Below are positions 130 through 42,920 of a stretch of 64,000 nucleotides of DNA, in pieces. The translations under genes and the position numbers were made by a program. Numbering within the stretch: position 1 is the stretch's first letter; each line of letters starts with the position of its first letter. Source of the DNA: Vicinamibacterales bacterium (GTDB lineage Bacteria; Acidobacteriota; Vicinamibacteria; Vicinamibacterales; SCN-69-37); assembly GCA_030827135.1 (NCBI GenBank), contig JAURFE010000001.1, forward strand, positions 1,393,946 through 1,457,945. Reading direction: 5' to 3'. Below the pieces are notes generated by a model. That model made no database searches and was not told the origin of the DNA. It was given only the letters and a program-made list of their open reading frames with translations.

Positions 130-3100
130 TCAGAACGAGATCGTCGCGCCGACGCGGAAGATCCGCGGCGGCAGGATCGTGTTGATCCGGTCCGACGGCC
201 GGACCGGATTGGACGTCGTACCCGCCGTGCTGATGTTGTTGCTCGAGTAGCCCAGCACGGGTGCGGCGTTCAGGATATTGAACCCGTCCAACATCACCTT
301 GATGCGGTTCTGACCGCCCCGGAACGTGAACGTCTTGTGGACCCCCATGTCCCACAACACCGTCTTCTCAAAGCGCGTCGTGCCGCGCTCCTCGAAGTTC
401 AGGGTGCTGTAGCTGATCGTGGTCGGGTTGCCCGACGCGTTCACCCCGCCGTACACCTGGCCAGGCCCGTTGATCGACATCGTGCGAATAGCGCCATCGT
501 TGATGTTCAGGTTCGTCGACGCCATGATCCCCCACGGGAGATCATAACTTCCGTTGAACTTGATCAAATAGCGCGCGATGCCGTTCGTACCGTCCTGGAA
601 CTCGATGCCTGTTGGGTTGGTGAAGCTCCCTGCAGGCAGGAAGTCGCTGCGGGTCTGAAGCGTCACCGCCAGGTTGGCCTGCCATCGGTCGCTGTAACGC
701 TTCGACAGGGTCAGGTCCACGCCCTTGTAGTCTTCGTAGCTAAGACGGGTCATCGTAATGGTCCCGATACCCGACGGGCGCATCGCGCCCTGCTGCACGA
801 CGTAGTACGGCGCCGACTTGCCGGACAACGGGTCAGTGTAGGTCAGTGGCGCGGCGTAGATCGACGACAGCGGGAAGCCGGCAGCGCCCGGCTGGTAGCC
901 AATCGTGTAGCCGGCTGTGCCGTTGTCGTAGCGACGATAGATAAAGTCCGCGCCCACAGCCATGTTGGCGACAAGCTCGCGCTGGAGGCCAAGCGTCACT
1001 TCGCGCGTCCGGCCAATCTTCGCGCTCTTGTCGACGTTGCTGCCGGCGGGAACCCGGAGGCCCGTCGACAGGTTGAACAGCGAGGTGCTGACCGACGGCG
1101 TGCCAATCAGCTCGTTGCTCTGGATGAAGCCGTCCATATTCGCATCCGTCCAGCACGAGGCGCCCGGCGTGGTACTGCACCGGCCGCTCGTCGGGTTCGC
1201 CCCCCATGTCAGTGTCACGGCACCCAGACTGCTGAGGTTGTTCGCGAGTGTGATCTTGGTGGCGTAGTAGTACGACCCCGACGCCTTGAGCACCGTCTTG
1301 CCGTTTCCGCTCAGGTCGTAGGTCAGGGACAGACGCGGAGACAGGTTGCCGAACGGCTGAAGCTCTTCGACCTGACCCGTGACGGGGCTCACACCCGACG
1401 TGGCCTCGTCTTCACACTGCGACGGCAGCAGGTCGGGCAGAATCTGGTTGGCCGGCACACAGCCGCCCAGCCACTTCGACTGCTGCCAGTCGTACCGGAT
1501 GCCCGCATTCACGCGCAGCCGGCCGCGCGAGTACGAGTCCTGGATGTAGCCAGACCACATCCACCAGTCGTTGTTGACGAGCTGGTCGCGCGTCACCTGA
1601 GCCAGGTAGGGCACCAGGCCCGGTGCGGTCGATCCCTCAACCGGCACGTAGGTCTTGCCGTCGCCGCAGTTGGCGAGCGTGTTGCCGCGGCACTGCACCT
1701 GCGCGCGTCCGCCGCCGCTGATGTGCTGGTAGGTCGTGATCGGATTATTGCGGTAGCCCGCGCCGAACTTCAGCGAGTGGTCGCCGCCCAGCACGCTGGT
1801 CAGGAAGTACGTGCCGTCGGTCTTGATTTCCAGCGACGGACGCTTCGTCTGGTAGCTGTTGCCCAGCGACCGGCTCAGATTGCCCGTCGTCCGGATGGTC
1901 TGCGGCTGGATGTTGAACATGCACTGGGGGTTCGCCGTCTGCGGATAACCCGCCAGCGTGGTCGCGCCCGTGTACTTGGACAGACCGCAGATCTCCGGGG
2001 CGATCGAATCCTGGTAGTCGAGATAGAACCCGCCGGCCACGCTGGTCAACATCGTGTTGAAGACGAGACGATCACTGGCGATCCAGGTGTGCGTCAGCTG
2101 ATGCGTCGGCAGGGGGAAGTATTTCAGCCAGATGTCCGACGTCTGCTTCGTCACCGCCTCCAGCTCAGTGTTGGCCGAGGCACCTCGCGCGTTGCGGTAC
2201 TTGTTGTCGGAGATGAACAGGTACTGGAACTTGTTCGAGGCGTTCAGCTGGAAGTTCAGCTTGCCCTGCTTGTTCTTGATCACCGTCTTGTCGTTTTTCA
2301 GACAACCCTGGACCTGCTCAAGGTCACTGAAGGCGATGGTGCCGAGCAGGCTGCCGGAGCGCTGCGCGTCTGCATACGCGCTGCACGTCGTGCCCTTGTC
2401 GCGGTCAAAGAAGTTGACGACGCCGACGTTGATGTCCTGCTTGTCGAGCGCCACCCACCACCACAACTTGTTGCGCAGCAGCGGACCGCCGTATTCGCCC
2501 GACATGTTGTAAATCTTCGACACCGGCGCACCGGACAGGAACCCGGAGGCGCCGCGTTTGAACTGGTCCTCCGACACGTTGTTGCCCTGCATCGAGTCGT
2601 TCTGGAACGTGCCGACGAGCGAGCCCTTGAACACGTTCGAACCCGACTTGGTGATCAGGTTGATCGACAGACCCGATGACTGCACCGAGACGTCGCCGCC
2701 GCCGTTGGTCACCGAGATCTGCTCGAAGGAGTCGAAGTTGTAGTACATCGCCGACGAGTTCGACGACAGGTCCGTCATCGAGCCGCCTTCGAGGTTCCAC
2801 TGCACGGAGGCCCCGGTGCCGCGCGACTGCAGGCCGACCTGCTGACCCGACGACGAGCCGCCGACGTTCAGACCCGCCTGCACCCCCGGGGTCATGTTGA
2901 TGATCTGCCACGGGTCGCGGGCCGACGGAATCTTCTCCAGGATCTCCGCGGTGAACGTGGCGCCGGTGGTGGTCTTCTTTGTATCCACGACCGGAGCCGC
3001 CGCCGAGACGGTGACCTCTTCGGTCATCGCGCCGACTTCCATCGTCGCGTTGATTTCGGCGTTAAAGCCGGAGGTGACATCCACGTTCTGCCGAGCGACA

Positions 3101-3366
3101 CGCTTGAAGCCGCTCAACTCAAACGTCACCACGTACTTGCCAATCGGCACCACCGGGAACTGGTACGCGCCCGTGGACTGCGTCACCTGCGTCAGCGGTT
3201 GCTGCAACGTGGGCCCCGTGACGGTCACGGTCACGCCCGGCAGCACACCGCCGGACGAGTCGATCGCCTTGCCAAAGATCTGACCAATCGCCTGGGCGTT
3301 GGCCGACCCCGCCGACATCGCCAGCAATCCGGCGACGAGCAGCATTCCTCGTACGACTCTTGTCAT
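130..3366 (-). CDS. TonB-dependent receptor, Oar-like, with N-terminal carboxypeptidase-regulatory domain
   Basis: Outer-membrane receptor of about 1078 aa. The start at 3366 (MTRVVRGMLL...) is chosen because GAGGAGAAGG sits directly upstream and the following residues form a signal peptide ending near SAGSANAQA; an in-frame codon 19 residues further upstream lacks these. After the signal peptide comes a CarboxypepD_reg-like beta-sandwich (IFGKAIDSSGGVLPGVTVTV, roughly residues 28-110). Next is a plug domain with 'PSARDPWQIINMTPGV', and then a long beta-barrel ending in an aromatic residue (VGATISF), as BAM substrates do. Such receptors in Acidobacteriota are annotated as Oar/SusC-like; the ligand cannot be told from the sequence. 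It is monocistronic, with its own promoter and terminator. Confidence 0.93.
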   Translation of the reverse strand: MTRVVRGMLLVAGLLAMSAGSANAQAIGQIFGKAIDSSGGVLPGVTVTVTGPTLQQPLTQVTQSTGAYQFPVVPIGKYVVTFELSGFKRVARQNVDVTSGFNAEINATMEVGAMTEEVTVSAAAPVVDTKKTTTGATFTAEILEKIPSARDPWQIINMTPGVQAGLNVGGSSSGQQVGLQSRGTGASVQWNLEGGSMTDLSSNSSAMYYNFDSFEQISVTNGGGDVSVQSSGLSINLITKSGSNVFKGSLVGTFQNDSMQGNNVSEDQFKRGASGFLSGAPVSKIYNMSGEYGGPLLRNKLWWWVALDKQDINVGVVNFFDRDKGTTCSAYADAQRSGSLLGTIAFSDLEQVQGCLKNDKTVIKNKQGKLNFQLNASNKFQYLFISDNKYRNARGASANTELEAVTKQTSDIWLKYFPLPTHQLTHTWIASDRLVFNTMLTSVAGGFYLDYQDSIAPEICGLSKYTGATTLAGYPQTANPQCMFNIQPQTIRTTGNLSRSLGNSYQTKRPSLEIKTDGTYFLTSVLGGDHSLKFGAGYRNNPITTYQHISGGGRAQVQCRGNTLANCGDGKTYVPVEGSTAPGLVPYLAQVTRDQLVNNDWWMWSGYIQDSYSRGRLRVNAGIRYDWQQSKWLGGCVPANQILPDLLPSQCEDEATSGVSPVTGQVEELQPFGNLSPRLSLTYDLSGNGKTVLKASGSYYYATKITLANNLSSLGAVTLTWGANPTSGRCSTTPGASCWTDANMDGFIQSNELIGTPSVSTSLFNLSTGLRVPAGSNVDKSAKIGRTREVTLGLQRELVANMAVGADFIYRRYDNGTAGYTIGYQPGAAGFPLSSIYAAPLTYTDPLSGKSAPYYVVQQGAMRPSGIGTITMTRLSYEDYKGVDLTLSKRYSDRWQANLAVTLQTRSDFLPAGSFTNPTGIEFQDGTNGIARYLIKFNGSYDLPWGIMASTNLNINDGAIRTMSINGPGQVYGGVNASGNPTTISYSTLNFEERGTTRFEKTVLWDMGVHKTFTFRGGQNRIKVMLDGFNILNAAPVLGYSSNNISTAGTTSNPVRPSDRINTILPPRIFRVGATISF

Positions 3367-3465
3367 CCTTCTCCTCCTCAATCCCCTGTCCAGACCGGGA
3401 AAACGCACACGGCACGGGCACACCGATGCCAGCGACCAAGCTACTCCAGTACCAGAGGGTGATGG

Positions 3466-3631: not shown

Positions 3632-5740
3632 ATGATTCGATCGCGCGTGGGCCTCTGGACAACCGCGGCCCTCCTGGTGGCACTCGCTGCGGGCTGGTGG
3701 TTCTGGCCGGCACGGGCGTTTCACATGGCCCGCACGCCCGATCGCAATGTGCTCCTCATTTCCATCGACACCCTGCGGGCCGATGCCCTTGGGTCCTACG
3801 GCGGCCGGGCCGCCACGCCGGCGCTCGACGCCCTGGCAGCCGCAGGCGCACGGTTCACCTTTGCACACGCCCACGCGGTCGTGACCCTGCCCTCCCACGC
3901 CAGCCTGCTGACCGGCACCTACCCGTATGAACATGGGGTCCGCGACAACAACGGCTATCGCGTGCGCCCCGGTGAAGCCACACTGGCCACGCGACTGAAA
4001 GCGATGGGATTCGCGACGGGGGCGTTCGTCGGCGCATTCCCCCTCGATCAACGTTTTGGACTCAACCAGGGATTCGATGTGTACGACGACCGGCTTCCGG
4101 AAGCGGGGCCCACGATCGACTTTGCGCTGCCGGAACGCCGGGCCGACGACGTTGTCTCTGCCGCCCGCACCTGGATCGGAAGGCAGTCAGCGCCCTGGTT
4201 CAGTTTTGTGCACGTCTTCGATCCACACGCGCCCTATCGGCCGCCGGCGCCGTTCGACGCCCAGTACGCCACCGATGCCTATGCGGGTGAAGTGGCATGG
4301 ACGGATGCCGCCCTCGCACCACTGCTCGACCTGCTGCGCACGCAGCCCCGGCCCACGCTCGTGATCGTGACCTCCGACCACGGCGAAAGCCTCGGCGAAC
4401 ACGGCGAACTCACGCACGGCATCTTTGCCTACGAAGCGACGCTTCGCGTGCCGCTCATCATCGCGGAGATCACCCCTGACGGCACCGCCTCGTCGCGCGG
4501 CGTGGCCATCGACACGCCGGCCAGGCACGTGGACATTGTGCCGACCGTGCTCGATGCGGTCGGCGCGCCGATCGAGACCGGCGTGGCCGGCGCGTCCCTG
4601 CTCGACGTGATGGCCGCCGGCCGCGGTGACGCGCGGCCGAGTTATTTCGAGGCCATGACGCCGTTTCTTGCCAGAGGCTGGGCACCGCTGCGAGGCGTGC
4701 TGGTCTATCGCGACAAGTACATCGATCTCCCGATTGCCGAACGCTACGCGCTGGCCGACGACCCGCGCGAACAACAGAACCTGGCGACCGCCGACGCGAC
4801 GGCGACGCAGGTGCTGGTCAACACCTTGCGCACGTTCAACGTGGCGGCGCCCGGCCAGCCCGGTGAGGAATCCGGCGCCGTCCTCGAGCGGCTCCGTGCG
4901 CTGGGATACATCGGCGGAAGCCCGGCGCCTCGTCGCGAGCAATACACCGAGGCCGACGATCCCAAACGCCTGATCGATCTCGATCGGATGCTCCACACCG
5001 CGGGCGATCTCTATTCGCGTGGGCGCCGGGACGAGGCGATCGACGCGTACCGCGCCGTCATCGCGCGGCGGCCGGATACCGCCGACGCCTACCGCTACCT
5101 CGCCTTCGCGCTCTGGGAGTCCGGCCGCGCCGGTGACGCCATCGCCACTCTCGAAGCGGCACTCGCGCGCGGACTCACGCAGCGCGACATCCGCATGAAA
5201 CTCGGTATCTATCTGGCCGAAGCCGGAGCCGCCGCGCGCGCCATCCCGCTCCTGGAAGCCATGGCCGACGAGGACAGTGACGTCCTCAACGCCCTCGGCA
5301 TTGCCTACGGGCAAAACGGCCGCACGGCCGACGCGATGCGCACGTTCGAGCGCGCACTCCGCCTCGATGCCACCTCCGGCCTCTCGCACCAGAACATCGC
5401 CCTGCTCCACCTGCGCACCGGGAATCTGGTCGCGGCCGAAGCGGCCTTCCGGCAGGCGCTCGACATCGATCCCTCACTCGCCGGCGCCCACACCGGCCTC
5501 GGCGTGGTCCTCGCGCAACGCGATCGCCTTCCCGAAGCCCTGAACGCCTGGCGCAGGGCCGTGTCGCTCGACCCGGGCGAATTCAACGCGTTGTTCAACC
5601 TGACGATGGAACTGTTTGCTTCCGGGCAGACCGAGGAAGCCCGGCACTACGGGGAACGCTTTGTGGCCACCGCGCCACCGCAACTCTTCGGCCCCGACAT
5701 TGCCCAGGTCCGCCGGCGGCTCGCCGGTGGTAGATTCTGA
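3632..5740 (+). CDS. Sulfatase-like (alkaline phosphatase superfamily) hydrolase fused to TPR repeats, copy 1
   Basis: 702-aa protein with an N-terminal membrane anchor (about residues 7-26), a sulfatase-fold domain (38-330) and C-terminal TPR repeats (about 450-700). Metal-ligand motifs are visible: LLISIDTLRAD (Asp46) and TSDHGESLGEHGE. The active-site segment reads TLPSHASLLTG, so Thr85 occupies the position that is the formylglycine-precursor Cys/Ser (C/S-x-P-x-R) in true sulfatases, and His replaces the Arg. It therefore cannot be a formylglycine sulfatase; a phosphodiesterase or phosphotransferase with a Thr nucleophile is more likely (inference). It opens a tight plus-strand cluster with two paralogues and two VWFA proteins; the next gene starts 5 bp after its stop. 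Confidence 0.88.
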   Translation: MIRSRVGLWTTAALLVALAAGWWFWPARAFHMARTPDRNVLLISIDTLRADALGSYGGRAATPALDALAAAGARFTFAHAHAVVTLPSHASLLTGTYPYEHGVRDNNGYRVRPGEATLATRLKAMGFATGAFVGAFPLDQRFGLNQGFDVYDDRLPEAGPTIDFALPERRADDVVSAARTWIGRQSAPWFSFVHVFDPHAPYRPPAPFDAQYATDAYAGEVAWTDAALAPLLDLLRTQPRPTLVIVTSDHGESLGEHGELTHGIFAYEATLRVPLIIAEITPDGTASSRGVAIDTPARHVDIVPTVLDAVGAPIETGVAGASLLDVMAAGRGDARPSYFEAMTPFLARGWAPLRGVLVYRDKYIDLPIAERYALADDPREQQNLATADATATQVLVNTLRTFNVAAPGQPGEESGAVLERLRALGYIGGSPAPRREQYTEADDPKRLIDLDRMLHTAGDLYSRGRRDEAIDAYRAVIARRPDTADAYRYLAFALWESGRAGDAIATLEAALARGLTQRDIRMKLGIYLAEAGAAARAIPLLEAMADEDSDVLNALGIAYGQNGRTADAMRTFERALRLDATSGLSHQNIALLHLRTGNLVAAEAAFRQALDIDPSLAGAHTGLGVVLAQRDRLPEALNAWRRAVSLDPGEFNALFNLTMELFASGQTEEARHYGERFVATAPPQLFGPDIAQVRRRLAGGRF

Positions 5741-5745
5741 TCATC

Positions 5746-6510
5746 ATGTTCACCCTGCTGCTGTCCCTCCTCGTGCAGGCGCCGCAGACCCCCGTAGCGC
5801 CGGTCATCGTCTCTCCCGCGCCGCCGGTGGCGGACATCGACATGCGGCAGCTCAAGGGCGCTCTGGTGCGCCAGCTGGCGTGGTCGCCGGACCAGACCGA
5901 GCTTTACCTGCAGACGTATGACGCCAACCGGGACGCCAGCGTCAAGGTGACCTATCACTACGTGATTGCCGCGCTCGACGGCGCGCGACGGCAGGTCGAG
6001 GTCCCGCCGGGATGGGCCGTCGCGTATCACCAGTGGAAGTCCGCGCAGGCGTCGCCCGACGATGCCCTGTGGAAGATTGACGTATCGAGTGAGAGAAAGA
6101 TCCAGTCGGCGACATCCATCCCAATGGGGGGCGACCTCGCGCGGGGCGGATCGGTCGACGCGTCAGGCGGCATTTCGGCCCACACGGTCACCGCCGCCAT
6201 GGCGCAGTCCGACAACATCAACGTCTACACCATGCGCCTCGGCAACGAGGTCGTCGGAGAGTGGACCAACCATCCAATCGTGCCGGGCCTGACGTTCGGC
6301 TGGGCGCCCAGGGGTCACACGCTGATTGCCTTCGCCGACAAGGCCGGCCAGCTCGCGGTGATGGACCGCGCAGGACAGGCCGTGCGTGTGGCTGGCACGC
6401 AGAAGGTCACGCTGCCCGCGTGGTCACACGACGGTACGCACCTCGCCTTTCTGCAGCAGAAGGACCGTCACACGTACACGCTCATCGTCGCGAGCGTGTC
6501 GCGGCGATGA
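5746..6510 (+). CDS. Exported beta-propeller-like (PD40/TolB-type) protein
   Basis: 254-aa protein beginning with a short hydrophobic signal-like segment (MFTLLLSLLVQAP). PD40/WD-like motifs recur: LAWSPDQTELYLQTYD, FGWAPRGHTLIAFADK and PAWSHDGTHLAFLQQK, the last in the classic 'SpDGkxiaF' form of TolB-like propellers. There are too few blades visible for a complete propeller. It sits 5 bp after copy 1 of the sulfatase-like gene and overlaps the next one by ATGA, so it is very probably cotranscribed and translationally coupled. Function unknown; a periplasmic accessory role to the neighbouring hydrolases is inference only. Confidence 0.75.
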   Translation: MFTLLLSLLVQAPQTPVAPVIVSPAPPVADIDMRQLKGALVRQLAWSPDQTELYLQTYDANRDASVKVTYHYVIAALDGARRQVEVPPGWAVAYHQWKSAQASPDDALWKIDVSSERKIQSATSIPMGGDLARGGSVDASGGISAHTVTAAMAQSDNINVYTMRLGNEVVGEWTNHPIVPGLTFGWAPRGHTLIAFADKAGQLAVMDRAGQAVRVAGTQKVTLPAWSHDGTHLAFLQQKDRHTYTLIVASVSRR

Positions 6511-8684
6511 GTGTGTCGCGCGCGCGTCGCACCACAGCACGCTGGCTGGCCGTGATCGGCATCGCCGCGGCCGCGGCCGCGCTGGTCATCACAACGTGGG
6601 TGCAGCGAGACACCACGGCGGGGCCGGTCATTCTGATCTCCATCGACACGCTGCGCGCCGACCGCCTGCCCGTGTATGGTTATGCTGCGGGACAGACGCC
6701 GGCGATCGATCGGCTTGCGAATGATGGGCACGTCTTCGAACAGGCCTGGACGTCGTCGCCACAAACGCTGCCCGCGCACTCGACCATCTTCTCGGGGCTG
6801 CAGCCCTTTGCGCATGGCGTGCGTGACAACATCGGGTTCACCCTGGGGCCGGACACGCCGTGGGTGCCTGCCCTCCTGCAAGAGGCGGCGGTGCCCTCAG
6901 CCGCCTTCGTGTCTTCGTTTGTGTTGAGACGGCAGACGGGCTTCGCCCGGGGGTTCTCACACTTCGACGACCAGTTGCCGCCGTCGGGGCCCAATCGGAC
7001 GCTTGGGGAGGTGCAGCGGGCGGGACAGGATACGCTCGCCGCAGCCCAGAAATGGCTGGCGTCGGCGCCGCCCCGGTACTTCCTGTTCTTCCATATCTAT
7101 GAACCCCACAAGCCCTACACACCGCCCGTGGTGCCGGCGTCTGGTGATCGCTACGACGGCGAAGTCACGCATGCCGATGCGATCGTGGGGCAACTGATCG
7201 AGACCCTGCGGGCACGCGGAGACTATGACCGCGCCACCGTCATCCTGCTGTCCGACCACGGCGAAGGACTCGGCGACCACGGCGAGGAGGAGCACGGGTC
7301 CTTCCTGTATCGCTCGACCATCCAGGTGCCGTTGATCATCAAGCTTCCGGACAGTGAGGGCGCGGGTCGCCGGATCAGCACGCCGGTGCAGCACCTCGAC
7401 ATGGCGCCGACGATTCTCACCGCACTGGGGCTGCCTGTGCCCGGCACGCTGGGCGGACGCCCGCTGGGGCCGGTGCTGCGCGGAGAAACCGACCTGCCGG
7501 CCGCCACGATTTATGCGGAGGCCATGTCGCCCCGCTATCACTTCGGCTGGAGCGAGTTGTATGCGCTCACCGATGAGCGGTATCGCTACATTCGCGCGCC
7601 GCGCGATGAACTGTTCGACCTGCGTGAGGATCCGGGCGAATCGCGATCCGTCGTCGATGCCCGACCGCAGGTGCGTCAGGCGATGCGCTCGGCGCTGGAT
7701 CGGCTTCTGGCCGGCGTCAGCGTCGCCGCGCCGGCCACGGTGTCGGCTGCCGATCGCGAACGGCTCGCGGCCCTCGGATACGTCGGCACACAGAGCAGCA
7801 CGATCACACAGCCCGGCGACATGCTGCCGGATCCCAAGGACAAGATTGAAGTCCTTCGCTTGTATCAACGCGCGGCATCGCTGGCCGCCGAGGGAAAATG
7901 GCTGGAGGCCTCTGCGGCCTATCGCGCCCTGCTGGCCGACGATCCGTCGATGACCGACGTCTGGCTGCAGCTGGCGGGGACCCTCGACCGCGCGGGACAG
8001 GCCACTGCCGCGCTCGACGCCTACCGGCAGCTGATTGAGCGCAATCCGACCAACGCGCCCGCCCTGACGGGCGCCGCCGCAGTGCTCGTACAGCTCAGCC
8101 GGTTCGAGGAGGCGCGTGCCCACGCGGAACTCGCCATTCCGGTCGCGCCTGCCATCGCGCACGAACTGCTGGCCCGCCTCGCGGTGCAGCGCAAGGATGC
8201 TGCCGCAGCGCGCCACCACGCCGCGGAGGCGGCCACGGCGGATCCGACGCTGCCGATGCCGGCGTTCGTCGACGGCCTGCTCTTCTACAACCAGAACGCG
8301 TTCGCCGCAGCGATTCCACCGCTGCAGGCGGCGGTGCGCGCGCTGACCGACCGCACGGAGCAGGTCGCGGACGTCCGATACGTGCTCGCCGACTCGCTGG
8401 CGCGAGAGGGCCGCTTGAGCGAAGCCGCGCCACTGTTTGCGACTGAAATCGCGATCTATCCCAACCACCTGCTCGCGCGCGCCGGCCTCGCCATGACCGA
8501 ATGGGAACTGGGTCGTCGCACCGAGGCGCGCAATGCGGTGGAGGATCTCGAGGCCGCGGCCGCCCGGTTTGGTCAGCCACAGGGATACCTGCTCGCCGCC
8601 CAGTTGTGGACACAATTCGGAGACACCGTCCGAGCCGAGCGGGCCCGCGCGTTCCACCAGACACGACAGGGCCCAGCGCGGTAA
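6507..8684 (+). CDS. Sulfatase-like hydrolase fused to TPR repeats, copy 2
   Basis: 725-aa paralogue of the gene at 3632. The start at 6507 gives a 4-bp ATGA overlap with the preceding stop and places a membrane anchor (residues 12-32) at the N-terminus; an in-frame codon 82 residues upstream would add an improbable leader. The fold is marked by VILISIDTLRAD (Asp47), LSDHGEGLGDHGEE and FHIYEPHKPY. The nucleophile segment is QTLPAHSTIFSG, so Thr87 replaces Cys/Ser. TPR-like helices begin near residue 450 (YQRAASLAAEGKWLEASAAY) and fill the C-terminal third. Substrate unknown. The active site should face the periplasm. Confidence 0.87.
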   Translation: MSVSRARRTTARWLAVIGIAAAAAALVITTWVQRDTTAGPVILISIDTLRADRLPVYGYAAGQTPAIDRLANDGHVFEQAWTSSPQTLPAHSTIFSGLQPFAHGVRDNIGFTLGPDTPWVPALLQEAAVPSAAFVSSFVLRRQTGFARGFSHFDDQLPPSGPNRTLGEVQRAGQDTLAAAQKWLASAPPRYFLFFHIYEPHKPYTPPVVPASGDRYDGEVTHADAIVGQLIETLRARGDYDRATVILLSDHGEGLGDHGEEEHGSFLYRSTIQVPLIIKLPDSEGAGRRISTPVQHLDMAPTILTALGLPVPGTLGGRPLGPVLRGETDLPAATIYAEAMSPRYHFGWSELYALTDERYRYIRAPRDELFDLREDPGESRSVVDARPQVRQAMRSALDRLLAGVSVAAPATVSAADRERLAALGYVGTQSSTITQPGDMLPDPKDKIEVLRLYQRAASLAAEGKWLEASAAYRALLADDPSMTDVWLQLAGTLDRAGQATAALDAYRQLIERNPTNAPALTGAAAVLVQLSRFEEARAHAELAIPVAPAIAHELLARLAVQRKDAAAARHHAAEAATADPTLPMPAFVDGLLFYNQNAFAAAIPPLQAAVRALTDRTEQVADVRYVLADSLAREGRLSEAAPLFATEIAIYPNHLLARAGLAMTEWELGRRTEARNAVEDLEAAAARFGQPQGYLLAAQLWTQFGDTVRAERARAFHQTRQGPAR

Positions 8685-8693
8685 CATTCGATC

Positions 8694-11291
8694 GTGGCGG
8701 TCCCACATTCCCTTCGACTCCCGCTGCTGTTGGGTGTTGCTGTCTGTCTGTCCGGCGGCCGCGCGGCGGGCCAGGCTCAGTTTCGCACGGGCGTGGATCT
8801 GGTCCGGCTCGATATCAGGGTCACTGATGCCGCCGGACGGCCGATCACTGACCTTCGTGCGGACGAAGTGGTGGTGACCGAGCGCGGCGCCGACCGACCC
8901 GTGCTGCTGTTTCAGCGCGTCACCGAGCCGGCTGAGACATTCGTAGACGAGGCCGCTCGTGCGCTCACCGCAGAGGTGGCGTCAAACCAGGCGTTCCCGC
9001 GAGGCCACCTCTACGTCCTCGTGTTTGATCAGGCCCACATCACAGCCGGGAACGAACAACGCGCCCGGATGGCGGCCGAGCAGTTTATTCGCACCAGAAT
9101 CCGCCCGGCGGACCGTGTCGCCATCTATTCGGTCCCTGGGCCTGGAGCCCGACTGAGCTTCACGGCCGATCATCAACGTGCACTGGCCGCGCTCGAGCCG
9201 ATCCGCGGATCCTACCAGCGCACCATGTCCACGCCATTCGGCACATTCCCGATCCACGAGGCACACCGCATCGTGCAGGGGGACGACCGCCTGATCACCA
9301 CGACGATTGAACGGCTGGCCAGGGACGGTAGTGGTGACCTTCTGGGTCTGCCCACCGCCGGCGGAGGCCGAGGCGGCGGCTCACTGGCTGACGACCCCAG
9401 CATCGCGCGCCGCGTCATCGTCGAGAACGCGCGCATGGTCGTGAACCAGTCGGACGCTGAATCGCGGCAATTTCTGCAGCGGCTGGCCGAACTGATCCGC
9501 AACCTCGCAGATGTCGAGGGGCGGAAGTCCGTGGTGTTGTTCTCGGAAGGGTTCTTCCAGGACAATCTCTCGCGAGAGTTGGAGATTGTGGCTGCCGCCG
9601 CAGCGCAGACGTACAGCGTCTTCTACACTATTGATCTCAACCAGCGTGGCCCGGCGATCACCGAGGCGTACGCCTCGGAGACCGCGCAAGGTTCCGAGAT
9701 TCAGGCACGTCTCGCGCCTCTCGGCACACTCGCGGTGGAAACCGACGGTGAGTTATTTGTGGATGGCGCCGCGCGCAGCGGCACAGTGCTGACCAGACTC
9801 GCAGCCCAGGCCCAGGACTATTATCTCGTCGGCTTCGAACCATCGGAGACGGCACGCAACAACCGCGGCCAGTACCAGAGGGTCTCCGTCAGTGTGACCC
9901 GCCCCGGCGCGAAGGTCAGCACCAGAACCGGCTACGCATTGCGTCCGGCCCTGACGCCCGCCGACCGCCAGCGCGCCGTCGCCACCGTCCTCAACGCACC
10001 ATTTGTGCAGCAGGGCCTGAAGCTCGACTACACCACCTACCTCTTGAAGGCCGACGTGCCTGGCCAGCAGCGTGTGGTGCTGAGCCTGCGGGCTCAGCTC
10101 CCGGTGCGGTCGGATCCCGGCGACAAGGCCGACGTCGTTTTTGTCGCGCGCGACGTCCGCGACGGGCGGGTGGTCGCCAGCGGCGCGGACGTGATTCCGC
10201 TGCCGGAGGCCACCGCCCAGGGTTCCAGCATGGGCCTGGGCGCGTGGCGCGTTCAATTCACCGTGCCGGCCGGGCACTACCTGATGCGCGCGGTCGTGCG
10301 TGAGCCAGGCGGACTCGCCGGAAGTGCCGACCGTCGTGTGGAGGTGCGGCCATTCGATACGCCCGATGTGGCGGTGAGCGATCTGATTCTCGGGACAAGC
10401 CCGGCGTCGATTCCGGTCCGCGCGCTGGCCCACATTGATGACGGTCTGAGTGGACTGCTGGAAGCCTACGCCCGGGTGGCAGACCAGCTGCGGTCGCTCA
10501 GTTTGACGGTGACTGTTCGTACGACCGACGGCACTCAGGCGCTGGCGTCGTACACCGCGCCGCTGCCGGCGCCGGTATCGAACCTCGACGGCTTCATGAT
10601 TCGTGCACCGTTCACGGTGCCCCTCGCCGGCGTCGCACCGGGGAGCTACGTCGTTCACGCCACGCTCCTGAGCGGGAACGGAGTCCTGGCGGATCGGACG
10701 CGATTTGTGGACCTGGTGAGTGGAACCGCCGGTCCCCCTCCGCCACGACCACTGCCGCCTCCCGCGCCCCTGGTGGCGCCGAGGGCAATCGTCGAGGGCC
10801 AGCTCGGTCAGGCCCTTGTGGCGGAACTGCTGCAGCGGTCCGCGGGTACGACGTTCGCGGCGGCCGCGGAAGACGCCGCTCGGGGTGCGTGGGAGCGTGC
10901 GGAAGCCGCAGTGCAAGGGTCCACCGGGGATTCGAGCTTTGTCGCGCAGTCGATCCGGGGCCTGTCCCGATTTGTCCGCGAGGATTTTCCAGGCGCCGTA
11001 GCCGCATGGACGCGCGCGCAGGCGGCGGAACCCGACCATGCCCTGACGTCGTTTTTCCTCGGATGGGCCCAGGAACGGGCCGGAGACACCCGCGCGGCCC
11101 TCACGGCATGGCGCGGCGCAGCGCACCTGGACCCGCTGATGGTGTCGGCGCATCTGGCCCTCGCGGAGGGGTATCTGAAACTCCAGCAACCGGATCTGGC
11201 GCGACAGGCCCTGCGCGCCGGTCTCGAATCACTGCCGGACTCAGCCGAACTGCTCGCGAAGCTGCGACAGATCGAAGGGAGAGAACCGTAG
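8694..11291 (+). CDS. VWFA-related Acidobacterial domain protein with C-terminal TPR
   Basis: 865-aa exported protein starting at a GTG, with a signal peptide ending near GRAAGQ. It has the family's N-terminal strand segment (FRTGVDLVRLDIRVTDAAGR), then a von Willebrand A-like fold. At the first MIDAS position it has LVFDQAHITAG instead of DxSxS, so canonical metal binding is doubtful. After a Pro-rich linker (PPPPRPLPPP, near residue 680) TPR-like helices follow (FFLGWAQERAGDTRAALTAW). This matches the 'VWFA-related Acidobacterial domain' family, whose function is unknown. It begins 9 bp after copy 2 of the sulfatase-like gene. Confidence 0.85.
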   Translation: MAVPHSLRLPLLLGVAVCLSGGRAAGQAQFRTGVDLVRLDIRVTDAAGRPITDLRADEVVVTERGADRPVLLFQRVTEPAETFVDEAARALTAEVASNQAFPRGHLYVLVFDQAHITAGNEQRARMAAEQFIRTRIRPADRVAIYSVPGPGARLSFTADHQRALAALEPIRGSYQRTMSTPFGTFPIHEAHRIVQGDDRLITTTIERLARDGSGDLLGLPTAGGGRGGGSLADDPSIARRVIVENARMVVNQSDAESRQFLQRLAELIRNLADVEGRKSVVLFSEGFFQDNLSRELEIVAAAAAQTYSVFYTIDLNQRGPAITEAYASETAQGSEIQARLAPLGTLAVETDGELFVDGAARSGTVLTRLAAQAQDYYLVGFEPSETARNNRGQYQRVSVSVTRPGAKVSTRTGYALRPALTPADRQRAVATVLNAPFVQQGLKLDYTTYLLKADVPGQQRVVLSLRAQLPVRSDPGDKADVVFVARDVRDGRVVASGADVIPLPEATAQGSSMGLGAWRVQFTVPAGHYLMRAVVREPGGLAGSADRRVEVRPFDTPDVAVSDLILGTSPASIPVRALAHIDDGLSGLLEAYARVADQLRSLSLTVTVRTTDGTQALASYTAPLPAPVSNLDGFMIRAPFTVPLAGVAPGSYVVHATLLSGNGVLADRTRFVDLVSGTAGPPPPRPLPPPAPLVAPRAIVEGQLGQALVAELLQRSAGTTFAAAAEDAARGAWERAEAAVQGSTGDSSFVAQSIRGLSRFVREDFPGAVAAWTRAQAAEPDHALTSFFLGWAQERAGDTRAALTAWRGAAHLDPLMVSAHLALAEGYLKLQQPDLARQALRAGLESLPDSAELLAKLRQIEGREP

Positions 11292-12604
11292 TGCGTCGTG
11301 CAAAGTGCTCGGTGCTGGGCGCGCTGCTCGGGGCATCGTGCTGGGTGCTGAGTGCGGCCGCGCAACAGGCGACACCGCCACCGCAACAACCGCCGACGTT
11401 CCAGGCCAGCGCCCAACTGGTGCAGGTCGATGTTCGCGTGTTCGATAGCAACGGCCGCTTCGTCGATGACCTGACGATGGACGACTTCGAAATCTACGAA
11501 CGTGGCGCGTCGCAGCCACTCCGCGCGGTGTTTTATGTCGGTCCTCCCGCCGGTGCGCCTACGGGTGCACCACTGGTCAGCCTCCGGGGACCGGCGGGAC
11601 TCTCGCCTGGCCAGGCAACCGGCTCTGCGGCTGCGGCGGCAGCGAAACAGACATGGATCTTTGTGTTTGACCTGAACCATCTCACCCCGGGCAGCGGCTT
11701 CGAACGGTCGCGCGATGCGGTGCGCACCTTCATCAAGGAGCAGTTCCGCGACGGGGATCTTGGCGGTATCGTCGCCGGGTCCCGCATGGTCAACAACAGG
11801 CTCACGAGTGTCCGCTCCGAGCTTGAGGACGCGGTCGGCGCGGTGAAACCACTCGCCGACCAGCGCTCGCGCATGATCGAGATGACACGCGAGTGGCCGA
11901 GGCTGCGCGACGAATCGGAGGTACTCGCGATCGCCCGCGAAGATAAGGACGCCATTCAGCGCGCAGCCGTCCGCGCCTGCACGGACGACCCGTCCGCGTG
12001 CCAGGCAACACCGGCCGACATGATGGTGCGCGACAAGGCGCGCCGTCTGGCGGGCGACATGCTGCGCGCCGGCAGGGACACCCTCTCGTCGATGACCGGG
12101 CTGGCCAGCGGCCTGGCCCGAATCCCTGGTCCAAAGACGATCGTGTTCCTCAGCAGCGGTTTCGTCGTACAGGAGGTTGAATCCAACCTGCGCGCAACCG
12201 TCGGACAGGCGGCCAGAGCCGGCGCGCGCATTTACGCGATCGACGCGCGTGGAATCAATCGGGGCGTCAGCGCCGACATCGGCGACCGGCCCGCCGCCGA
12301 GAGCCCGACTTCGGCCCCGGCGCGGTTTGACATCGGCCTCGATGGACCCAACAGCCTCGCCGTTGATACGGGCGGCATCTTCATCCGGAACGAGAACAAC
12401 ATCGGCCGCGCGTTGACGCAGATCGCCGACGATGCCAACAGGTACTACGTGCTGGGTTATCAGCCTGACGATCTGAAATTGGACGGGCAGTACCGCCCTG
12501 TTGAGGTGCGCGTGAAGCGGGCAGACGTCACCATCCGGGCCCGGCGCGGCTACCTCGCGCTTCCGGCATCACAGCTGCTGGTTCCGCAGTCGATCACACG
12601 CTAG
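11291..12604 (+). CDS. VWFA-related Acidobacterial domain protein, second copy
   Basis: 437-aa protein. The GTG at 11291 is chosen because it overlaps the previous stop by one base and begins a signal peptide (MRRAKCSVLGALLGASCWVL); longer in-frame starts lie inside the upstream gene. The body matches the preceding protein: FQASAQLVQVDVRVFDSNGR, DDFEIYERG, and FVFDLNHLTPG at the MIDAS site, which again lacks DxSxS. The end (RYYVLGYQPDD, then VRVKRADVTIRARRGY) is typical of the family. It lacks the TPR extension of its neighbour. The signal-peptide DNA is built from repeated GTGCTGGG-like words. Confidence 0.85.
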   Translation: MRRAKCSVLGALLGASCWVLSAAAQQATPPPQQPPTFQASAQLVQVDVRVFDSNGRFVDDLTMDDFEIYERGASQPLRAVFYVGPPAGAPTGAPLVSLRGPAGLSPGQATGSAAAAAAKQTWIFVFDLNHLTPGSGFERSRDAVRTFIKEQFRDGDLGGIVAGSRMVNNRLTSVRSELEDAVGAVKPLADQRSRMIEMTREWPRLRDESEVLAIAREDKDAIQRAAVRACTDDPSACQATPADMMVRDKARRLAGDMLRAGRDTLSSMTGLASGLARIPGPKTIVFLSSGFVVQEVESNLRATVGQAARAGARIYAIDARGINRGVSADIGDRPAAESPTSAPARFDIGLDGPNSLAVDTGGIFIRNENNIGRALTQIADDANRYYVLGYQPDDLKLDGQYRPVEVRVKRADVTIRARRGYLALPASQLLVPQSITR

Positions 12605-12606
12605 CG

Positions 12607-14610
12607 ATGTCGAGACGCCTGCGCGCACTACTGGTCCTGGGCACGATGTCCGCGATCGCCGTCGTCATGTGGATGACCGTCGGTCGCCGCCCGGCTGAGC
12701 CGCCGGTGCGCCATGTCATCCTCTTCACGCTCGACACCACTCGCGCGGATCGCATCGGCGCCTACGGAGCCTCGGCCGCACGGACACCAACCCTCGACGC
12801 GTTGGCCGCCCGTGGCGTCCGGTTTGATGATGCGCAAACATCCGCCCCGATTACAGGCCCCGCGCACGCGGCCATCTTCACCGGCGTGTATCCGGCGCGA
12901 TACGGGGTCCGCGACAACGCGACCACGCCACTGCCGGAGCGGGCGACGACGATGGCCGAGCGGTTGTCGGAGGCCGGGTTTGCCACGGGCGGGTTCATCG
13001 GCGCGTTTGTTCTTGATCGCGCGTTTGGTTTCGCGCAGGGGTTTGCCGCGTTTTCAGGATTCGATACGGTGGATTCCGGCAGCGAGGCCAACGCCGAGCG
13101 GGTCGGCGCAGCCGTCGTGGCCGACGCGATCCGGTGGATTGACACCGTCCCGCGGGCGCAGCCACTGTTCCTCTGGGTCCACCTGTACGACCCGCACGCA
13201 CCTTACAGCGCACCAGCCCCGTTCGGCGCGGAGTTCGCGGCGAACCCGTATGACGGTGAGGTGGCGTACGTCGATCAGCAGATTGGGCGGGTGCTCGACG
13301 CGCTGCGTCTGCGGGGGAGCCTTGAGGACAGCCTGGTCATCGTGGTGGCGGATCACGGCGAGTCGCTCGGCGAACACGGCGAAGACGAACACGGCGTGTT
13401 TCTCTACGAATCGGTGATTCGGGTGCCGCTGATCGTCGCGGGGCCGCAGGCGCGACGAGGCCATGTGGTCACCGAGCAGGTGCGCACCGTTGACCTGATG
13501 CCCACCGTGCTCGATCTGCTTGGCCTGGCGGCGACGGCCGAGTTCGACGGCGAAAGCCTGCGATCGGTACTGAATGGCGGGCGCCGCACGGTGGTTCCGC
13601 CTGCGTACGCAGAGTCGTATTACCCGAAACTCCACTACGGCTGGAGCGAGTTGCGCGCGTTGCGGGCTGATGGCTGGAAGGTCATCGATGCACCCACGCC
13701 AGAATTGTTTGCGATCGGCAAGGACCCAGGGGAAACGACGAACCTGTTCCAGGCACAGCGGGCGCTGGGCGACCGCATGGTCGCGGAAGTGGTGCGGCTC
13801 GAGCAGTCCTTCACCGGCGGCAGGGCGCCTGAAGCGGCCGCGCCAAGCCGTGAGACGCTGGAGCGGCTCCGTAGTCTCGGCTATGTCGGCACCTCCGCCC
13901 CCACCGTCACTGGTGGGGATCGCGGACCGGATCCGAAGGACCGCATCGAGGAACGCCGCACGTTCAAGCAGCTAATGACCGAAGCGATTGACGATCTGCG
14001 CGGCAACCGGTTGGACGATGCCGTGCGGAAGCTGCGCGACCTCGTACGGATCAACGACCGGGCCTATGACCTGCATCAACTGCTCGGTGAGGCCTATCAG
14101 CGCCAGGGGCGGATGCGCGACGCGCTCGGCGAATTCGAAATGGCGGCGCTGCTGAACCCCGCAGTCGCTGCGCCGCACCTGTCGGCCACTGAACTGCTTC
14201 TGGCGTCAGGAGACATCGATGCCGCCAGGAGCCGCCTTGAGACAGCCGCGACACTTGATCCTGGGTCGTTTGATGTGGCGCTGGTGACTGGTCTATTGCT
14301 GGAGGCCGAGCGACGGCCCGCGGAGGCGGCGGACGCATACGCGCGGGCCATCGCCGTAAACCCGGCGAACCCGCGCCCGCGTATGCGCCTGATCGGCGTG
14401 GCCTCTGAACTCAAGCGGTTTGACGTGGCCGAGCGTGAAGCCCGCACGCTCCTTGACCGCGACTACAGACCGTCCCGCATGCACCTCACGCTCGGCGGCC
14501 TGGCACAGCTTCAGGGCCGGACCGCCGAAGCCGCCCAGCACTATCGCGAGGCCCTCCGTCTCGAACCAGGGCTGGCCATGGCCGAGCAGGCCCTGCGGCA
14601 GTTGCGGTGA
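12607..14610 (+). CDS. Sulfatase-like hydrolase fused to TPR repeats, copy 3
   Basis: 667-aa third paralogue, starting 2 bp after the preceding stop. It has an N-terminal membrane anchor (residues 6-26), HVILFTLDTTRAD (Asp43), VADHGESLGEHGEDEHG and WVHLYDPHAPYS. The nucleophile segment is ITGPAHAAIFTG: Thr83 sits where Cys/Ser would be. TPR repeats fill residues 450-667 (AYQRQGRMRDALGEFEMAAL). It ends the plus-strand cluster, and a REP-like hairpin follows the stop. As for the other copies, a phosphodiesterase- or transferase-like role at the outer face of the inner membrane is inferred, not shown. Confidence 0.87.
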   Translation: MSRRLRALLVLGTMSAIAVVMWMTVGRRPAEPPVRHVILFTLDTTRADRIGAYGASAARTPTLDALAARGVRFDDAQTSAPITGPAHAAIFTGVYPARYGVRDNATTPLPERATTMAERLSEAGFATGGFIGAFVLDRAFGFAQGFAAFSGFDTVDSGSEANAERVGAAVVADAIRWIDTVPRAQPLFLWVHLYDPHAPYSAPAPFGAEFAANPYDGEVAYVDQQIGRVLDALRLRGSLEDSLVIVVADHGESLGEHGEDEHGVFLYESVIRVPLIVAGPQARRGHVVTEQVRTVDLMPTVLDLLGLAATAEFDGESLRSVLNGGRRTVVPPAYAESYYPKLHYGWSELRALRADGWKVIDAPTPELFAIGKDPGETTNLFQAQRALGDRMVAEVVRLEQSFTGGRAPEAAAPSRETLERLRSLGYVGTSAPTVTGGDRGPDPKDRIEERRTFKQLMTEAIDDLRGNRLDDAVRKLRDLVRINDRAYDLHQLLGEAYQRQGRMRDALGEFEMAALLNPAVAAPHLSATELLLASGDIDAARSRLETAATLDPGSFDVALVTGLLLEAERRPAEAADAYARAIAVNPANPRPRMRLIGVASELKRFDVAEREARTLLDRDYRPSRMHLTLGGLAQLQGRTAEAAQHYREALRLEPGLAMAEQALRQLR

Positions 14611-14650: not shown

Positions 14651-15604
14651 TCACTTGATCGTGTCGAGAATCTTCCTGGCCGCATCGAGCTCAGGTGCGG
14701 TCGGTGGCGCAAGGCTGACGAACTTCAGCAGGTCGGCCTTGGCCTCTGCGCTGCGACCCAGGCCGAGGTGCGAAATCCCGCGATAGTAGTAGGCACTCGG
14801 ATCATTCGGGAATGCCGCGATGGCCTTGTCGAACCATTGAATGGCGTCTGCCTGCTTCTTGTTGTTGATCAGGTCGATGCCGATATTCAGCAGCACTGTG
14901 GGATCGGTCACCTTGCTGGCATCAATCGAAGCCATGACCTGCTGCCCCTCGGCCATCTGTCCGGTCTCGATCAGCAGTGTGCCGAGCAGAACCTGAATTT
15001 CAATCGCTGCCGGGTCATCGGCCACGGCCGCCTTCAGCGTCGCGATGGCGTCGGGCGTCCGGCCGGCGCCATACTGCGCCCTGGCAATCAGCGGCTTGAA
15101 CTGTTTGACCGTCGGGTACTGTGTCGCCAGCGCCTCGTAGATGGCCAGCGCGGGCACAAATTCCTTGCGCATCATCAGCCCGGCCGCCTCGGTGAGCCGC
15201 TCCTTGATGACGTCGTTCGGGTCGACCACGACAACCACCTTCTTCATCACAAGCGTCGTCGCCGGTAGTCGATTGAATTCACTGATCTGCACCGACTTGC
15301 TGACGGGCTCGTAGCCCTCGCGATCAAAATCAATTGCCCACATGCCGCCGGTGATGCCGCCGATCGACCAGTCACCCTTGGCGTTTGTTTTCACCGGCGC
15401 CGGTCCGCGATTCGAGGAGGACGGCAGCGTTGCCTTGACGATGACGCCCTCAATCGGCGCGCCGTTTTCGTCGGTCACCTTGCCCGCAATGCGCCCCTGC
15501 CCACGCCACTCCTGGGCGACGGCGGCGGCGGGAATGGTCAGGACGGCCAGCAGCGTGGCCACGCACAGCACTCGGCGGACGCGATCCGTTGTTAATGGTT
15601 CCAT
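14651..15604 (-). CDS. Exported carboxypeptidase-regulatory-like / TPR protein
   Basis: 317-aa protein. The start at 15604 (MEPLTTDRVRRV) is preferred because CAGGAGA lies upstream and a signal peptide follows (LCVATLLAVLTIPAAAVAQ). Residues 30-115 form a CarboxypepD_reg-like sandwich (GRIAGKVTDENGAPIEGVIV). The rest is TPR-like: YEALATQYPTVKQFKPLIAR, LLGTLLIETGQMAEGQQVM and YYYRGISHLGLGRSAEAKAD. It lies downstream of the second TonB receptor but is separated from it by a strong terminator, so it is probably expressed independently. A scaffold or surface-assembly role is inference. Confidence 0.82.
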   Translation of the reverse strand: MEPLTTDRVRRVLCVATLLAVLTIPAAAVAQEWRGQGRIAGKVTDENGAPIEGVIVKATLPSSSNRGPAPVKTNAKGDWSIGGITGGMWAIDFDREGYEPVSKSVQISEFNRLPATTLVMKKVVVVVDPNDVIKERLTEAAGLMMRKEFVPALAIYEALATQYPTVKQFKPLIARAQYGAGRTPDAIATLKAAVADDPAAIEIQVLLGTLLIETGQMAEGQQVMASIDASKVTDPTVLLNIGIDLINNKKQADAIQWFDKAIAAFPNDPSAYYYRGISHLGLGRSAEAKADLLKFVSLAPPTAPELDAARKILDTIK

Positions 15605-15654
15605 TCCCAGTCTCCTGCTCCCCATCTTCCATCCTCGACCCGCAATCCTCAATC

Positions 15655-35945: not shown

Positions 35946-36347
35946 TTACCGCAGGCGTGTCACCACGTCCGGCGGCAGTTCCACCGAGCGGACGCCCCGA
36001 TCCGGCACGGTCTCTACGCACACGGAGGTCATCGCTCCGGTCGCGAGGATGTCGGTGCCGCGCCTCAGGGTGAATCCGTATCTGAGCGAGCGACGCCCTA
36101 CGGCCTCGACTCGTACGTCCACCTCAAATTCGTCCTCGAAATGCAGCGGGCCCTTGAAGTCACACGAGGCAGACACCCGCGGGTATCCGAGGCGCCCCCC
36201 CGGAGGCGCGATCTGCAGGCCCAGTGAGCGCCACAATGCGTGCTCGGCTTCTTCCATGTAGCGGAAATACCAACTGAAGTGGACGATACCGGCCATATCG
36301 GTCTCGGCAAACTGCACGCGGCGTCGGTAACAGAACTCAGCAGGCAT
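35946..36347 (-). CDS. Hotdog-fold acyl-CoA thioesterase (4-hydroxybenzoyl-CoA thioesterase/YbgC type)
   Basis: 133-aa protein of normal length for the family. The N-terminal motif FAETDMAGIVHFSWYFRYMEE contains the active-site Asp (usual form D-x-x-G-x-V/H-x-x-x-Y). DFKGPLHFEDEFEVDVRVEA and VCVETVP complete the hotdog. It hydrolyses acyl-CoA thioesters in the cytoplasm; the exact acyl chain is unknown. It is first of a minus-strand group with the ABA4-like and membrane proteins and divergent from the TonB receptor at 36370, with only 22 bp between the start codons. Confidence 0.9.
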   Translation of the reverse strand: MPAEFCYRRRVQFAETDMAGIVHFSWYFRYMEEAEHALWRSLGLQIAPPGGRLGYPRVSASCDFKGPLHFEDEFEVDVRVEAVGRRSLRYGFTLRRGTDILATGAMTSVCVETVPDRGVRSVELPPDVVTRLR

Positions 36348-36355
36348 GGCCTTTC

Positions 36356-36363
36356 ACTATACT
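36356..36363. promoter_or_regulatory. Overlapping divergent -10 elements
   Basis: The sequence ACTATACT reads TATACT on plus (36358-36363) and TATAGT on minus (36361-36356). Each lies 6-8 nt from a start codon (36370 on plus, 36347 on minus). This would place both transcription starts at or next to the start codons. No good -35 or Shine-Dalgarno is visible on either side. Confidence 0.45.
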
Positions 36364-36369
36364 GACGGC

Positions 36370-39300: not shown

Positions 39301-39438
39301 GCCAACTTCGGCCCCCCGTCGCTGGTCGCCTTCTCCGGCACCGCCAACGACGAACCCGTCTTGTCGTCGTTCGGCCAGATCCGCTCGACGATCACATCGG
39401 GACGCCAGGCACAGCTGGGTGTCAGAATCTCGTTCTGA
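36370..39438 (+). CDS. TonB-dependent receptor, Oar-like, third copy
   Basis: 1022-aa outer-membrane receptor starting at 36370 (MRFLIRSLALAAILLLTVTR...SAQ signal peptide). The CarboxypepD_reg domain (ATLSGVVQDGSGGVLPGAVV) is followed by a plug with 'VNGRNYTDLMSLLPAVTPF', 'GQDPRANVYLLDGTLLNDF' and 'QINAITKSGTNRLAGSAF'. The barrel ends LGVRISF. This is the subtype most common in Acidobacteriota. No substrate-specific partner lies beside it. A -10-like TATACT 6 nt upstream of the ATG suggests a leaderless transcript. Confidence 0.93.
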   Translation: MRFLIRSLALAAILLLTVTRTVSAQTGATLSGVVQDGSGGVLPGAVVVARQVATGATRETVSGADGRFAMGSLQAGAYEVRAELNGFRPLLRSGINLTVGENASLTLTMTVGAAEVVTVTGAASQVNTRTSELSYLVDQRTMAQIPVNGRNYTDLMSLLPAVTPFPHRDNGSVVAHGLAMSVNGQDPRANVYLLDGTLLNDFTNSPAGSAAGTALGMDTVQEFRLESNTYRAEFGRNIGGQINAITKSGTNRLAGSAFEFHRNEALDAKGYFDTGDKPDFMRNQFGGTLGGPVRRDRLFFFGGYEALIENLGRTVVTTVPDANARLGVVNGVTIPINAAVVPFLNEFPRANGESIGSGLARYTFPFDQTLRQHFLQGRVDAVLANGAQLFTRYTFDDAEQRLPTDFPQFPRSFISTNQYLTAEYRQSLSSSSFHTLRAGYSRTRVGQDIEANTATPLPVFAPGREFTGAIDIGGMPRFGPQLSARLRLRQDVFSLNYDITHTRGKHLFKAGVVGEHYVSSEFNPTFSLGVFRFASISTFLRATPASFIGLTPQGDTNRKWPFTVYGAYLQDDWQVRPNLTLNLGVRVEGSTMPVDEGNRDINMRDLLGVPEIGRLYKNPAPTISPRVGAAWNVRADGRTSIRGGYGLYYNTNNHQNLIVTVTNPPATPRVVIAAPSFPVPQFERLSGISIRPMQYDIQLPRVHMWNLNVQQELFADWVVMVGYAGSRGKHLWRNSDVNVPTPTTLSDGTLFYAAGLTRPNTRYSAIELKSSDGNSWYKAFIVEMKKRWSNGLQVQSSYTWSESEDTTQNSTFFSDSTTATTSAMPEFIKDYNKGYSDFHAKHNWVTNFVWEPFSGWRLSGIYRMRSGSPLTPFVQTNRSRSLWSPSLGPGTGPDRPSYAPGYGPNNAVTGDPTRWFNPAAFRLQPIGTFGTVGRNELIGPDLQTMDLALSRTIGLRRLSMGRGTIELRAEVFNLFNRANFGPPSLVAFSGTANDEPVLSSFGQIRSTITSGRQAQLGVRISF

Positions 39439-40226: not shown

Positions 40227-40254
40227 GGCGCGCTTCAAGTTCAGCGCGCCCTAC
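40227..40254 (-). repeat. REP-like hairpin supplying a stop codon
   Basis: Arms GGCGCGCT / AGCGCGCC, 8-nt loop TCAAGTTC, then CTAC (GTAG on the minus strand). The CTA at 40251-40253 is the TAG stop of the metalloprotease gene. Confidence 0.85.
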
Positions 40255-42812: not shown

Positions 42813-42827
42813 ATCCACCTCCGGTTC

Positions 42828-42920
42828 GGCACCCTGCAAACCAGGGTGCCCTCCATGTGCGGCACCCTACAACCCAGGGTGCCCTACATGTCTTGCACCC
42901 TACACCCCAGGGTGCCCTCC
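42828..42920 (-). repeat. Tandem array of three REP-like hairpins upstream of the metalloprotease gene
   Basis: Three 33-bp units (starts 42828, 42861, 42894) with arms GGCACCCT / AGGGTGCC (the outermost pair is lost in unit three). The 7-nt loops are GCAAACC, ACAACCC and ACACCCC, and each unit is followed by CTCC, CTAC and CTCC. The array starts 16 bp before the metalloprotease start codon, so its promoter must lie within or beyond it. The 316-bp gap 42813-43128 holds this array, a permease remnant and one more hairpin. Confidence 0.87.

Follow-up and report, generated by a model that had tools for sequence, protein, structure and literature searches.

A 64,000-nucleotide stretch of a Vicinamibacterales genome (Acidobacteriota; contig JAURFE010000001.1, positions 1,393,946 to 1,457,945; hereafter the window) carries six plus-strand genes, g1 to g6 (3632-14610), among them three whose products join a sulfatase-like domain to a tail of tetratricopeptide repeats (TPR) and have threonine at the nucleophile position. 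We suggest, with a probability of about 0.55, that this locus encodes a periplasmic, TPR-scaffolded phosphodiesterase or phosphotransferase module working with an Oar-type TonB-dependent transporter. The locus is conserved across the order and apparently undescribed: as an earlier note on this DNA had supposed, searching open-access papers for the system, its domain combinations or its lineage turned up no description of it.

The six genes are tightly packed, adjacent ones overlapping or lying no more than 9 bp apart (junctions, from g1 to g6, of +5, -4, +9, -1 and +2 bp). The three TPR-sulfatases are g1 (3632-5740; 702 amino acids; PF00884 E 3.8e-41; motif VTLPSH), g3 (6507-8684, with ATG at 6507; 725 amino acids; E 4.2e-36; QTLPAH) and g6 (12607-14610; 667 amino acids; E 1.7e-47; ITGPAH), each with its TPR at the C-terminus. 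Two VWFA proteins are encoded by g4 (8694-11291; GTG start; 865 amino acids; C-terminal TPR) and g5 (11291-12604; GTG start; 437 amino acids), which score 153.5 and 178.1 bits against the curated TIGR03436 acidobacterial VWFA model, above its cut-off of 81.25 bits. The earlier note had described this arrangement of three TPR-sulfatases and two VWFA proteins, and the coordinates, domain assignments and scores agree with it. Read by eye, the N-termini of g1, g3 and g6 resemble uncleaved membrane anchors; that of g1 is hydrophobic, and a single helix (3-24) precedes the catalytic domain in its model.

A predicted sulfatase-like fold with a phospho-type ligand pattern

Sulfatases of the S1 class depend on a Cys or Ser that is converted to formylglycine, on an Arg four residues further on and on a Lys. 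The TPR class differs at all three. The motif T-x-[PVAT]-[SA]-H is present in 31 of 31 TPR-sulfatases from the window's family, and an alignment of 117 relatives, nearly all from named loci, has Thr in 113, His at n+4 in 112, H197 in 112, D249 in 115, H250 in 116 and H262 (g6 numbering) in 114. Across both sets the class motifs are nearly uniform: the Asp in [S/T]-[I/L]-D-T, the Thr in T-x-[P/V/A/T]-[S/A]-H, the sequence [D/E]-P-H-x-x-Y, and the stretch D-H-G-E-x-L-G-[E/D]-H-G-x-x-x-H-G. The S1 hallmark C/S-x-P-x-R is therefore not the class motif; the four aligned relatives that lack Thr have Ser (two) or Cys (two), and both Cys sequences have low profile scores, one of them (L112, CSPTR) carrying the ordinary sulfatase motif. 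Likewise, the S1 Lys is not the class residue at the position 13 beyond the Asp of DHG, where 114 of the 117 have His; as we read the alignments, Lys occupies this position in phosphonate monoester hydrolase and in choline sulfatase. On the identity of the nucleophile, then, formylglycine chemistry is ruled out from sequence, as the earlier note had argued. In some g1-type enzymes of another genus the nucleophile motif has lost its Pro (TLVSH, TLASH) while Thr and His are retained (L043:6880-8976, L044:4957-7065, L044:11621-13792 and L050:4062-6149).

The genome itself provides an internal comparison. All six of its TPR-bearing PF00884 proteins have Thr, and since formylglycine motifs are retained in two further PF00884 proteins (L001 with CAPAR, L002 with CSPTR), Thr is specific to the TPR class. 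These two proteins, together with one FGE-like protein encoded in the same genome, indicate that the organism probably has normal sulfatases beside the TPR class.

The TPR class departs from formylglycine enzymes in three coordinated ways, with Thr in place of Cys, His in place of Arg and His in place of Lys, and these changes give it a ligand pattern like that of Thr-nucleophile phospho-enzymes. The nucleophile of MCR-1 is Thr285; its Zn1 is bound by D465 and H466, and H395 and H478 have been discussed for Zn2 (PMC5175174). Residues 212-264 of g6 align with residues 212-264 of the MCR-1 chain 5grr with no difference in length, and H478 of MCR-1 stands at +13, the spacing of the class His after DHG. 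The Thr and Zn1/Zn2 ligand pattern of the EptA/MCR family is accordingly present in the sequence, with Asp rather than Glu as first ligand.

The predicted fold lies nearest to S1 sulfatases. The g1 model (pLDDT 84) finds its best Foldseek matches among S1 sulfatases (1.6e-18), with a VIA Z of 37.6 and a root-mean-square deviation of 2.8 over 340 residues; against phosphonate monoester hydrolases Z is 31-32. Both PF00884 and these structural matches place the domain in the sulfatase alpha/beta fold, so that the class combines, as far as the model and the site read from sequence go, a fold of sulfatase lineage with a site of phospho type. Membership in the phosphoethanolamine (pEtN) transferases was considered and rejected: scores against NF028537 are 22.7-28.1 bits, far from its curated cut-off of 500, and the multi-helix N-terminal membrane domain of EptA/MCR was not found in the g1 model, which has one helix. 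The kinship with nucleotide pyrophosphatases/phosphodiesterases (NPP) that the earlier note had suggested is not supported either. Although the PF01663 Phosphodiest profile passes its score cut-off, its best match is confined to positions 1-69 of 342, about a fifth of its length from the start. Among solved structures, S1 sulfatases and phosphonate monoester hydrolases come nearest, and where the local motif differs from sulfatases it is similar to pEtN transferases.

Conservation of the locus and its partners

The gene set is not a chance assembly, as further families of the order have it too. In a sister genome (G011) all six genes and the right flank are matched, at about 63-88% identity, and a g4 homolog is found in 27 of 129 genomes of the order. 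Twenty loci were chosen by g4 alone and read in six frames, several of them ending at contig ends; a TPR-sulfatase is present in 18, a g2-type gene in 15, an Oar-type TonB gene in 15 and a CarboxypepD_reg-TPR gene in 14. The earlier note had staked its proposal on a conserved neighbourhood, and one exists. The usual order is an optional CarboxypepD_reg-TPR gene, two sulfatases, VWFA, g2, VWFA and an optional further sulfatase, with a CarboxypepD_reg-TPR and TonB pair converging on them from the opposite strand. The window and G011 have g2 between their two leading sulfatases; G010 lacks it. In a tree of 146 sulfatase domains, g1, g3 and g6 each fall in a supported clade of their own (30 tips, 0.99; 24 tips, 0.987; 10 tips, 1.0) that consists nearly exclusively of genes from such loci, and the three are therefore paralogs retained from a time before the order's families diverged.

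The membership of the module, which the earlier note had confined to the six genes, proved right for those six but incomplete, since the Oar-type TonB and CarboxypepD_reg-TPR flanks and the role of g2 had been missed. On the left, tonbA (130-3423, minus strand; PF25183 1.3e-28, PF13620 4.1e-13) diverges from g1. On the right, converging with the operon, lie tprR (14651-15652, minus strand), an exported CarboxypepD_reg and TPR protein (PF13620 9.6e-11), and tonbB (15716-18607, minus strand). Both transporters have PF13620 and a PF25183 barrel, and tonbB alone has a PF07715 Plug. The remaining operon member, g2 (5746-6510, plus strand; 254 amino acids), is a small, putatively exported protein and a conserved component of the locus. 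Its sequence carries WD40/TolB-like repeats, and its model (pLDDT 85) matches TolB best in Foldseek (4.4e-05) and WD40 propellers with a VIA Z of about 11.8; "small propeller-like" is the safe name for a protein so predicted. The N-termini of g2, g4, g5, tprR, tonbA and tonbB resemble signal peptides, again judged by eye.

The earlier note had also observed that the two VWFA proteins lack a canonical metal-ion-dependent adhesion site (MIDAS). The DxSxS sequence was indeed not found at the expected position of g4 or g5; FDxxH[IL] replaces it there (FDQAHI in g4, FDLNHL in g5) and in most relatives from the order. The two proteins (8694-12604) may use a different metal site, or none.

Linkage to Oar-type transporters reaches further than linkage to VWFA proteins. 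In a wider set of named loci, at least 79 in number and drawn from Acidobacteriota, Planctomycetota and other groups, searched like the order with profile hidden Markov models built from the window's lineage, an Oar-type TonB gene lies within two genes of a TPR-sulfatase in 31 of the 79 listed, and such genes make up 17% of adjacent genes, 5.4% of those two to three genes away and 0.3% of those four or more away. A VWFA gene lies within two genes in only 3 of the 79 listed. We therefore discarded VWFA as a universal partner: its link is one of the order, and the TonB link is broader. By genome-search tables, all four TPR-sulfatase loci of the window's own genome have an Oar-type TonB gene within 5 kb; of its 16 Oar-type TonB genes, 4 are no more than 3 kb from a TPR-sulfatase, where 0.25 would be expected (2 of 5000 random placements give 4 or more), and 6 are no more than 2 kb from a VWFA gene, where 0.68 would be expected (0 of 5000 random placements give as many). 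A close relative of tonbA (79%) adjoins a second cluster in this genome.

A second such unit lies in that genome, some 15 to 2 kb to the left of the window start (L047:4343-16821), comprising a NamZ-beta-lactamase fusion (minus strand), a VWA protein, a TPR-sulfatase, a VWFA gene (minus strand), another VWFA gene and an Oar-type TonB gene (minus strand); three TIGR03436-related genes surround its TPR-sulfatase, at a distance of about 11 kb from the window. Most of the unit recurs in G008 (L052), G010 (L046) and G011 (L041).

Several observations concern the partners outside these loci. Elsewhere in the genome, Oar-type TonB genes are paired with TIGR03436 VWFA genes (C22:382061-385809, C11:124041-128400, C11:985026-989061, C11:1285607-1289748 and C11:166773-171066), which suggests a general TonB-VWFA partnership. 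The window has a further Oar-type TonB transporter (36346-39438; PF25183, 498 bits) with neither a TPR-sulfatase nor a VWFA neighbour, followed on the opposite strand by a Met-zincin (DUF4953/DUF5117; 40251-42839). A Pfam scan of 84 unassigned proteins adjoining TPR-sulfatases in the named loci revealed no common family besides TPR and a few GWxTD proteins, the GWxTD domain occurring in 4 of the 84. Genes for a transketolase (L058, L059) and for a histidine kinase (L071) also occur as neighbours and were regarded as unrelated to the locus.

A proposed mechanism and its alternatives

We envisage three ancient paralogous enzymes of the alkaline phosphatase superfamily, each tethered to the inner membrane through a single N-terminal helix, with sulfatase-like catalytic domains and their Thr nucleophiles facing the periplasm. 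The Asp of the DT motif, the Thr, the Asp and His of DHG, the His of DPHxPY and the His at +13 from DHG would form a site of phospho type, probably with two metals. Attack of the Thr on a phosphodiester would give a phospho-Thr intermediate that is resolved by water, as in a hydrolase, or by an acceptor, as in a transferase; since there is only one membrane helix we weakly prefer the hydrolase. The TPR tails, the exported FDxxH-bearing VWFA proteins, the TolB-like propeller and the CarboxypepD_reg-TPR protein may assemble into a scaffold that couples the enzymes to the Oar-type transporter, so that a phosphate-bearing substrate would be processed while crossing the outer membrane, or installed on the envelope. 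We infer the chemistry and metal count from the active-site residues and the coupling from genome linkage; complex formation stands, like these, as a proposal.

Several points weigh against this proposal. The fold is closest to S1 sulfatases, whereas pEtN transferases and NPPs are more distant. In Planctomycetota and other groups, many relatives have no TonB or VWFA neighbour, and the enzyme can therefore work alone. The linkage counts, finally, depend on lineage-built models and on at least 79 loci.

It is possible, and we hold it as a tentative alternative, that the three proteins are not scavenging hydrolases but phosphotransferases of the EptA/LtaS kind, decorating an envelope glycan, lipid or partner proteins with a phosphoester. 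The DHGESLGEHGxxxHG stretch matches pEtN transferases (4kav 4.8e-07, 5fgn 1.1e-06, 5grr 4e-04), and in the sister genome a glycosyltransferase-like GT-C/PMT_2-TPR gene lies immediately upstream of g1 (L042:625-2646), which suggests a glycosyltransferase partner. Its relative here, encoding a membrane protein of the GT-C (PMT_2/Alg9-like) kind that ends in TPR, extends to the left edge of the window (L047:16938-18959). However, EptA- and LtaS-type enzymes have a multi-helix membrane domain, where these proteins have a single N-terminal helix, and the NCBIfam transferase cut-offs are far off (22-28 bits of 500).

A role in scavenging peptidoglycan or another wall polymer seems unlikely. Here the NamZ-beta-lactamase would trim MurNAc, the Thr enzymes would cut phosphodiesters in the wall polymer and TonB would import the pieces. 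A divergent fusion of the NamZ exo-muramidase with a beta-lactamase, 57-75% identical between families, stands at the left border of 7 of the 20 order loci and of L043 (L043:11203-13650, L165:1774-4188, L169:16098-18584, L170:17199-19667, L174:2134-4581, L175:648-3047, L182:889-3354 and L183:16799-19255), and also to the left of the second unit in the window's genome, and this hints at a link to wall-polymer turnover. In that genome, however, the fusion is about 16 kb from g1 and may be just a stable neighbour, and nothing in the locus was recognised as a teichoic-acid enzyme.

We consider it improbable that the alkaline-phosphatase domains are weak or inactive receptors in a structural or sensing complex. 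There is a precedent in YejM/PbgA, which some have argued to be such a receptor; YejM keeps its Thr, and its status as an enzyme is disputed (PMC7576196). The TPR and VWFA parts would also suit a complex of this sort, being interaction modules. A dead site, however, would not be expected to keep its ligand residues in more than 95% of covered relatives from several phyla. Least probable is a new class of sulfatase that uses Thr directly: S1 sulfatases do share the overall fold and profile, but Thr, His and His occupy the places of the formylglycine residue, Arg and Lys.

These findings bear on annotation. Genes labelled "sulfatase" in Acidobacteriota and Planctomycetota can be taken as evidence of sulfated-polymer degradation, which for the TPR class would be wrong, because the residues for sulfatase chemistry are absent. 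The conserved coupling also offers a testable handle on the abundant Oar-type transporters and the expanded acidobacterial VWFA family.

Comparison with known systems

The TPR class shares with S1 sulfatases the fold over residues 35-448 of g1 and the Asp and Asp-His metal ligands, and differs from them in the three active-site residues and in its TPR tail. Phosphonate monoester hydrolase/PehA (4upk, 2vqr, 2w8s) provides the best local match to g6 200-308 (4upk 4.6e-16) and resembles the class in the phosphodiester or phosphonate chemistry that we would assign to it, but has a formylglycine nucleophile, Lys at +13, no TPR and no anchor. With EptA/MCR-1 and LtaS the class has in common the Thr nucleophile, the DHG Asp-His, the His at +13 and an alignment of equal length; those enzymes possess their own multi-helix membrane domain and Glu as first ligand, where the TPR class has Asp.

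The partners are likewise both familiar and altered. Although g4 and g5 score over the TIGR03436 cut-off, they conserve FDxxH[IL] where DxSxS would be expected. An N-terminal PF13620 extension with plug and barrel defines the Oar subclass, exemplified by Myxococcus xanthus Oar (PMC6434023), and tonbA and tonbB resemble it in the extension, in the large barrel and, for tonbB, in the Plug; they differ in their genomic coupling to TPR-sulfatases and VWFA proteins, and no PopC-like protease was recognised in the locus. We would go further only tentatively, to speculate that Thr-nucleophile phosphodiesterases or phosphotransferases on TPR and VWFA scaffolds make up an envelope system that processes a phosphate-bearing polymer or lipid while directly coupled to an Oar-type transporter, a functional counterpart of SusC/D loci built from unrelated partners around phosphate chemistry.

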